Positions 18,220-19,414 of a stretch of DNA of 64,000 bases are shown here, piece after piece; the first letter of the stretch is position 1; each line of letters opens with the position of its first letter. Made by a program: the position numbers and the translations under genes. Location: the NCBI GenBank assembly GCA_038831005.1, contig JAWBKZ010000004.1, positions 1-64,000 on the forward strand. Reading direction: 5' to 3'. Origin of the DNA: Ignisphaera sp. (GTDB lineage Archaea; Thermoproteota; Thermoprotei_A; Sulfolobales; Ignisphaeraceae). The notes beneath the pieces were generated by a model, which saw only the letters and a list, made by a program, of their open reading frames with translations, ran no database searches and had not been told where the DNA came from.

Positions 18220-19206
18220 ATGAGAAAAATGTTAAAGTACTTAGAACCCATCACGAGACTGTTTCACAATCCTAAAATGAGTATAAAGAAACATTATATG
18301 CCAAAAATAGTGTCACAAAAAGATATAGTAGAGGATCTAACCGAATTAAAGGTAATACCATTTGAAGCTTATTCAGCTCTTTCAAAAGTTATCAATGGTG
18401 ATATTAAGAGCTTTATTGAAGTACATATCGATTCACATGTATGTACACAAATATCGTCTATGTGTAGAGAATATCCATATAGGATTAAGTACCTTATACA
18501 TATGGATCCCGAATATGTGTTATTCTATTCTGAATGTATAGATGTTGAGATAGCCTATTCTATTATTTTTGGTGATATGGTTAAGTATTTTGAGTTTATA
18601 GAAGGATCTAGAAATAATGTTATGTTCCAGTGCGCAGTAATCCCTTCAAACATATTAATGACAGAAGCACTTAGATATACAAACTCTCTAAGAACCTCCA
18701 AAGGTTTAACCATAAAATCTAAACGCTTTCGTGAAATCGTTAAAGAATTGTCAGAAGCTGTAGAGGAGATTACTGAACTTATACTGGTTTTACCATGTAT
18801 TAACGAATTTTCTATATCTGTTATTAACCAATTAATTGATAAAGCACATCATAACGATAACTTTAGAATGTTCATCGCAACTTCAGCACCATCTATATAT
18901 GATGCAAGAAAATGTGGCATAAGCTATAGAAGCTTCTTTATTTCTTACTTGGAGATCATGAATAATGCAAGAGAATTTGATCATATATATCTGTGTAATT
19001 CAGAGGCAAGCAATATCGAAATAGTCATAAATAGAGCTACATATCTATCATCATATGATATAAATCTCAGACCTGAATCAGAATTCATATCAGTACAGAA
19101 TACTTCATTCATTGAAAACTTTATACTCAAGTACTTAAGAGACTGTCTATGTTCATCTAGTTTAGCAAGATATAGAAGAACCGTTTCCCGCTCTAGGTTT
19201 TTGTAG
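18220..19206 (+). CDS. hypothetical protein, divergent partner of 17619-18080
   Basis: The 328-residue protein is soluble, with mixed helix and strand. Residues 165-195 (SKRFREIVKELSEAVEEITE) form a charged helix, after which VINQLIDKAHHNDNFRMFIATSAPSIYDARKCGI resembles a nucleotide-fold strand-loop, but I cannot name a family. Six or more scattered cysteines do not form a CxxC pair. The last 20 codons run into the strong GC-rich hairpin at 19181-19231, so the C-terminus (YRRTVSRSRFL) is encoded by the hairpin. Its true end or expression may be shaped by that structure. Confidence 0.6.
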   Translation: MRKMLKYLEPITRLFHNPKMSIKKHYMPKIVSQKDIVEDLTELKVIPFEAYSALSKVINGDIKSFIEVHIDSHVCTQISSMCREYPYRIKYLIHMDPEYVLFYSECIDVEIAYSIIFGDMVKYFEFIEGSRNNVMFQCAVIPSNILMTEALRYTNSLRTSKGLTIKSKRFREIVKELSEAVEEITELILVLPCINEFSISVINQLIDKAHHNDNFRMFIATSAPSIYDARKCGISYRSFFISYLEIMNNAREFDHIYLCNSEASNIEIVINRATYLSSYDINLRPESEFISVQNTSFIENFILKYLRDCLCSSSLARYRRTVSRSRFL

Positions 19207-19379
19207 GTTTTCCTAGGGCGGGTCATCACGGTTTCCCTGAGCCCCCTCCCCACGGTCTGCCATGGGTCTCGGAAACCCAGGGTCACCAAAACCTTTTAAG
19301 CACCTAGGGTTTATAAACCTTGTCCAATCTGATCGCATCAAGAGCTCTAGGCATCCTAGAGAGACCTACAAAAACCTAG
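19181..19379 (-). ncRNA. candidate structured RNA in a GC-rich island
   Basis: In an AT-rich genome, 51 of the 80 bases at 19211-19290 are G or C, the usual sign of a structured RNA in a hyperthermophile. Two adjacent stems can be drawn. One is 19187-19197 with 19212-19222 (11 pairs, one G-T), extended by 19181-19184 with 19228-19231. The other is 19231-19236 with 19271-19276, extended by 19239-19244 with 19264-19270. On the minus strand the first stem has an asymmetric GATGA/AA internal loop resembling a kink-turn. A TATA-like GTTTATAAAC (19309-19318) sits about 25 bases ahead of the island for minus-strand transcription. A perfect 16-bp inverted repeat (19193-19208 and 19364-19379) flanks everything. 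I could not match RNase P RNA, SRP RNA or tRNA. Strand and ends are inferred. Confidence 0.45.
19193..19379. repeat. perfect 16-bp inverted repeat flanking the GC island
   Basis: CTAGGTTTTTGTAGGT at 19193-19208 is the exact reverse complement of ACCTACAAAAACCTAG at 19364-19379, 155 bases apart. Next to the right arm, 19345-19351 and 19355-19361 form another perfect 7-bp hairpin with a 3-base loop. The arms could be a long-range RNA closing stem or the ends of a small mobile element. Confidence 0.8.
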
Positions 19380-19414
19380 CACACTAAAACAGTTGCACAC
19401 CCTAAAATCAGATT

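Follow-up and report, generated by a model that had tools for sequence, protein, structure and literature searches.

A gene-deleted crenarchaeal transposon in Ignisphaera probably retains a divergent guide RNA gene of a TnpB/Cas12f-like nuclease

The omegaRNA of IscB/HEARO elements lies upstream of the nuclease gene, is co-directional with iscB and carries its guide at the 5′ end. The known reRNAs of TnpB systems, such as that of ISDra2, share the direction of tnpB and overlap its 3′ end (PMC8612924), and the TnpB papers found describe a guide at this 3′ site, one of them in Sulfolobus acidocaldarius (PMC12817955). Transposons can also leave RNAs behind, and the RNA-257 group of S. solfataricus consists of orphan RNAs with their own promoters that stem from the distal (3′) transposase coding region of ISC1904, the classical reRNA position (PMC3674436). 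Staphylothermus marinus carries MITEs of ~260 nt with inverted ends that resemble the sequence preceding its single-ORF transposase genes (PMC2678158); these were described as DNA repeats only, and no RNA was recognised. A divergent 5′ TnpB guide was not described in the open-access literature searched.

The locus reported here resembles the reRNA/omegaRNA systems of IS200/IS605 and IS607 elements in that a structured RNA scaffold ends at one transposon edge and is followed by a variable 3′ flank (here the putative guide), in that the partner protein of full copies has a TnpB/Cas12f fold, and in that insertion takes place next to a short motif with no target duplication. It differs in that the RNA forms a transcription unit of its own, divergent from the gene and located 5′ of it at the opposite element end, instead of sharing the strand and the 3′ end of tnpB, and in that this 3′ position is unstructured. 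A place upstream of the nuclease gene is shared with the IscB/HEARO omegaRNA, which is however co-directional, has a 5′ guide and serves another nuclease. Like the RNA-257 group, the present copy is an orphan, transposon-left RNA with its own putative promoter, but RNA-257 was ruled out as the same RNA because it is of the classical 3′ type (PMC3674436). The S. marinus MITEs are probably of the same kind as this element.

The DNA analysed (the window) is a 64 kb stretch of an Ignisphaera genome with a mean GC content of 34.6 %. Its GC maximum was located at 19211–19290, where 51 of 80 bases are G or C, and all 80-base windows with 51 G/C cluster in this one place. An earlier note, made from the letters of the sequence, had singled out a GC-rich island at 19181–19379; the island was borne out, but as a mobile element it reaches to ~19399, and its mobile nature had been missed. 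DNA matches to the element were found in 47 of 214 genomes of the order, which contains hundreds of its relatives. The aligned copies have sharp edges (left tip (A)ACCGTTT, right tip ..ACCC) and flanks that are unrelated from copy to copy. The element of ~218 bp was placed at 19182–19399 from the abrupt change of flank in all copies, from L041, a full-length copy with a gene, and from the L071/L185 empty site; its target was a run of C (CC at 19181–19182, CCC at 19400–19402). The 16-bp inverted repeat that had been reported between 19193–19208 (CTAGGTTTTTGTAGGT, plus strand) and 19364–19379 (minus strand) is perfect, with an estimated chance occurrence of ~5e-6 per 200-bp stretch, and forms the inner portion of an imperfect terminal inverted repeat of ~30 bp.

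Complete relatives in other crenarchaea are ~1.4 kb long with one gene each. The match in genome G151, which holds the closest full-length relative, was split, with query positions 1–138 and 150–211 lying ~1.1 kb apart and a single gene (~375 aa) as the insert. Positions 19329–19378 (plus strand) of the window match the last codons (..LIASRALNILERPTKT*) of the G151 gene and represent a tnpB 3′-end remnant, the remaining gene having been deleted. The split match with its gene insert, together with the sharp edges and unrelated flanks, identifies the window copy as a gene-deleted element, and its terminal inverted repeats, lack of a gene, ends homologous to those of a gene-bearing element and occurrence at multiple sites are those of a MITE. 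The island is thus the left end of a gene-deleted, non-autonomous crenarchaeal transposon. Insertion replaced the final codons of a host ORF (18220–19206, plus strand, 328 aa), whose last codons are now supplied by the element; joining the flanks restores ..RYRRTPKIRF*. A second copy in the same genome (G000:C4:192624-192814; L002:1501-1691) is degenerate, with 71 % identity and loss of the RNA fold (z about 0). By eye, this second copy adjoins, upstream, a HEPN/nucleotidyltransferase-like gene pair.

Folding of both strands, as the earlier note had proposed, gave −99.2 kcal/mol (z=−6.9) for the minus strand of 19175–19395 and z=−4.0 for the plus strand. The predicted minus-strand scaffold comprises 108 nt (19180–19287, 88 bits with covariance model R1), beginning with GGUGAC at 19287 and ending with ACGGU at 19180. 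Domain 1 (19235–19282) is a hairpin with a 12-bp helix, H1 (19271–19282/19235–19246), an internal GAGA/GA loop and a second helix, H2 (19260–19266/19249–19255). A stem had previously been drawn at 19231–19276; it is real, but the hairpin is the longer one of domain 1 and belongs to the minus strand. Domain 2 (19180–19232, minus strand) consists of a C-stem (ACCGU/ACGGU, 19228–19232/19180–19184), a kink-turn-like GAUGA/AA loop (19223–19227, 19185–19186) and an NC-stem (19212–19222/19187–19197) with one wobble pair; both this stem and the loop had been recognised before. Compared copies share one architecture: in domain 1 the 12-bp helix, the GAGA/GA loop and the second helix, and in domain 2 a short stem of 5 bp that leads through a GAUGA/(n)GA or AA loop into a long stem. 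The kink-turn consensus (3-nt bulge, tandem G.A) is matched in many relatives by GAU-GA/GA; the group of the window copy departs from it with GA/AA, having A.A at the second pair, and one group has other loops. Rfam searches at the gathering threshold and at E≤10 gave nothing meaningful for the window and a tRNA search was negative, in keeping with the earlier failure to fit the island to a known RNA class.

Covariation in homologues, named beforehand as a check, was found. Among 29 sequences, 94.7 % of cells in H1 and the C-stem were paired and 55 double changes were counted; shuffles gave 82.0±1.0 % and 14.1±3.0, respectively, and pairing fell to 36–56 % when the register was slid. A second alignment of domain 1 had 96.2 % of cells paired and 60 double changes (20.5±3.0 shuffled). 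The C-stem covaries from CG to GC in five sequences, and the NC-stem differs in type between groups. With GU and AC scored neutrally while H1 was being located, the strand opposite the gene showed 109 GU and 13 AC pairs, and 19 gene-less copies showed 64 GU and 10 AC. This asymmetry indicates that the RNA sense is opposite to tnpB, which is the minus strand in the window. The island therefore encodes a structured minus-strand RNA, as the fold, the covariation in both domains and the wobble asymmetry show. A plus-strand tnpB leader was ruled out by the same asymmetry and by the TATA box, which sits between the RNA and the gene.

This palindromic box, GTTTATAAAC at 19309–19318, had already been picked out as a TATA-like element of the island; it is present, is centred ~26 nt upstream of 19287, where the RNA is predicted to begin, and is a putative promoter. 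In the listed copies, read by eye, the box precedes the conserved GGUGAC start by 22–27 nt. Full copies have one box in common for both units, which also precedes the tnpB ATG, and RNA and tnpB are thus apparently transcribed in a back-to-back arrangement.

To determine the distribution of the RNA, a covariance model built on domain 1 was run on the 214 genomes of the order and detected 325 copies in 80 genomes. A GC-rich region lies directly upstream of the gene in the gene-bearing copies examined, and in 50 of 66 named loci RNA and gene are arranged head-to-head, 49–124 nt apart (median 60); the remaining loci are mostly partial genes or are cut by contig ends. For 18 intact loci, the divergent RNA had a mean z of −5.2, whereas the gene's 3′ end, where an omegaRNA classically lies, had a mean z of +0.1, and folding of these loci revealed no structure at this usual guide position. 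Some genomes contain numerous RNA copies (G002, 22; G133, 12; G152, 12) and no matching nuclease gene at E≤1e-5, so copies lacking the gene either spread or persist. Those read from G002 and G133 still pair in H1, partly via compensatory changes.

The element protein (~360–375 aa) was found in 67 of the 214 genomes. Pfam and NCBIfam gave weak matches (TnpB-related, Cas12f2), and 25 of 41 members matched TIGR01766 (TnpB-related) at E≤0.1, with a best value of 6.7e-5. An AlphaFold2 model from 41 homologues reached a pLDDT of 89.3; its best Foldseek matches were Cas12f (E=1.1e-11) and the ISFba1 TnpB–reRNA–DNA complex (E=1.6e-5), while a sequence-profile search of the PDB returned no match. RuvC residues D215 and E279 are invariant in an alignment of 18 proteins, and the third catalytic D is present in most members and replaced by N in two of the 18, including G151. 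The relatives' protein thus combines a Cas12f/TnpB fold with the RuvC D-E-D residues, the window copy itself having no nuclease. The alignment contains no CxxC motifs of a C4 zinc finger, the target nucleic-acid-binding domain, between E279 and the third D, marking a compact variant. From the Foldseek match, the RuvC residues and the weak family profiles, and so mainly from its predicted fold, the gene product is a compact, divergent TnpB/Cas12f-like nuclease. A protein search of phages and plasmids gave no match.

More distant proteins related to the nuclease occur in Sulfolobaceae (hhalign E=1.7e-34). At these loci a structured region lies upstream on the opposite strand and ends in ..GUCCGACCCC where the flanks diverge. 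Rfam family RF02814 (Sulfolobus sRNA133, Sso133) matched the divergent RNA in six of eight loci, so the RNA in the divergent position is a described sRNA in Sulfolobus. Like the RNA of this study, Sso133 is divergent upstream of a related nuclease and its structured part extends as far as the element edge, but its sequence is different, its scaffold is larger and the two do not cross-match at the Rfam threshold, the window RNA and its near relatives falling below the RF02814 gathering cut-off. Sso133 and the window RNA correspond in position and orientation. The searchable papers contained no link between Sso133 and TnpB.

Insertion was examined where an empty site was available. The L071 element interrupts a MutY-type glycosylase gene, which is uninterrupted in relative G080 (97 % identity, no indel over the junction), giving the empty site CAGTGTAGGGGCCGACC (L071/L185). 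On the RNA strand, the empty site reads CAGTGTAGGGG-CCGACC and the filled ends read ..GTAGGG[CTGTAAC.. and ..GAGC]GGCCGACC. Insertion was clean within GGGG, with four G in the empty site and GGG and (G)G at the filled ends. Under the same GGGG rule, the interrupted HEPN gene of L130 remains open over the junction; L102, L115, L122 and L126 were left out of the junction analysis (genes deleted, intergenic or ambiguous), and no empty site for the window copy was found within its genus. Because insertion is clean within GGGG and the RNA strand reads GGG followed by the flank that comes after the scaffold, this suggests GGG as a candidate target-adjacent motif (TAM). The scaffold of IS607 TnpBs takes in a fixed flanking base (PMC10711439), which resembles the fixed G of this element. 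The junction data would fit either IS200/IS605 or IS607 movement, and the element has no transposase gene.

A clean insertion after a short motif with no target duplication is also what an ordinary IS200/IS605-like MITE would show, its hairpins being ssDNA ends read by a Y1-type transposase, with no RNA involved. Because the hairpins recognised by single-strand transposases lie on one strand, the GU/AC asymmetry would fit as well, and so would the fold kept in orphan copies. This reading is nevertheless unlikely, since the fold spans two domains and ~108 nt, a conserved TATA box stands at the distance expected for transcription, no comparable structure exists at the other element end, the corresponding segment in Sulfolobus has been described as an sRNA and the genome of the window contains no Y1 transposase.

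The 3′ end of the scaffold (19180/19181) coincides with the transposon edge, and the flanking DNA would therefore become a 3′ guide. By analogy with reRNA/omegaRNA (PMC8612924), the predicted guide is the host DNA right after the scaffold, at 19161–19180 on the minus strand. This segment occurs once in the window and is antisense to the 3′ end of ORF 18220–19206. An RNA running on into the flank would thus also be suited to cis-antisense control of the neighbouring host gene or, given the shared bidirectional promoter region, to regulation of the nuclease gene, and there is precedent in the transposon-derived RNA-257 group, which represses a phosphate transporter mRNA in S. solfataricus (PMC3674436). 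A regulator of this kind in place of a guide is quite improbable: flanks differ among copies, so one host gene cannot explain conservation of the scaffold, the RNA does not overlap tnpB, and the scaffold end is the transposon edge. An L7Ae-bound modification guide (C/D or H/ACA-like) or other housekeeping RNA, to which the box C-like GUGAUGA and the kink-turn-like loop might point, is exceedingly improbable and largely refuted by the transposon context, since Rfam gives no match, copies bounded by transposon ends occupy many unrelated sites and full copies link the RNA to a nuclease gene.

Taken together, the island is probably a gene-deleted copy of a TnpB/Cas12f-like transposon that keeps its minus-strand guide-RNA gene. 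By analogy with reRNAs, the RNA is most likely the guide of a TnpB-type nuclease, at the opposite element end from usual guides. It would be transcribed from the TATA box that it shared back to back with the now deleted nuclease gene, fold into the two-domain scaffold, pass the transposon edge where the scaffold stops and read on into host DNA as its 3′ guide. In a full system, nuclease and RNA would cut the vacated site beside GGG and repair would copy the element back, as proposed for ISDra2 (PMC8612924). Of the earlier idea of an unusual L7Ae-binding guide RNA, the guide part thus probably stands, as a transposon-end guide for a TnpB/Cas12f-like nuclease, and the modification guide does not.

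Neither single-sequence nor profile searches detected a cognate nuclease in the genome of the window, and searches for Y1 transposase and serine recombinase there were negative, making the window copy an orphan guide locus; two pieces of ordinary TnpB are present. Such an orphan may possibly be idle or usable in trans. The window copy scores among the best in the order, while the degenerate copy in the same genome scores 56 bits, which indicates that the window copy is either young or has been retained. A more far-reaching proposal, which we hold to be rather doubtful, is an ancient crenarchaeal TnpB branch of inverted layout, in which guides with an L7Ae-type kink-turn have their own promoter and orphan loci persist by acting in trans, with nucleases of other elements or as host regulators.

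On the preferred reading of a transposon-end guide, a widespread archaeal lineage appears to encode its guide in a divergent gene of its own, at the transposon end away from the usual one, an arrangement that would uncouple expression of guide and nuclease. It also offers a likely meaning for Sso133, a described but unexplained sRNA, and suggests that guide RNA genes are able to spread as gene-less MITEs. The lineage is a source of compact (~360 aa), probably thermostable nucleases that lack a zinc finger and come with a candidate GGG motif.

In gene-bearing copies L055–L084, the stretch from the TATA box to the tnpB ATG contains a short palindrome where the mRNA presumably starts. The palindrome reads GGGTATATCCC, GGGGATTCCCC or GGCTATAGCC according to subgroup, is absent in the window copy and may be an operator or autoregulatory site. 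In Sulfolobaceae loci L212 and L214–L219, a small ORF (..EVIVIVILPxD..) is located between tnpB and its divergent RNA, with an overlap at the start of the gene; by eye, its product is AbrB-like.
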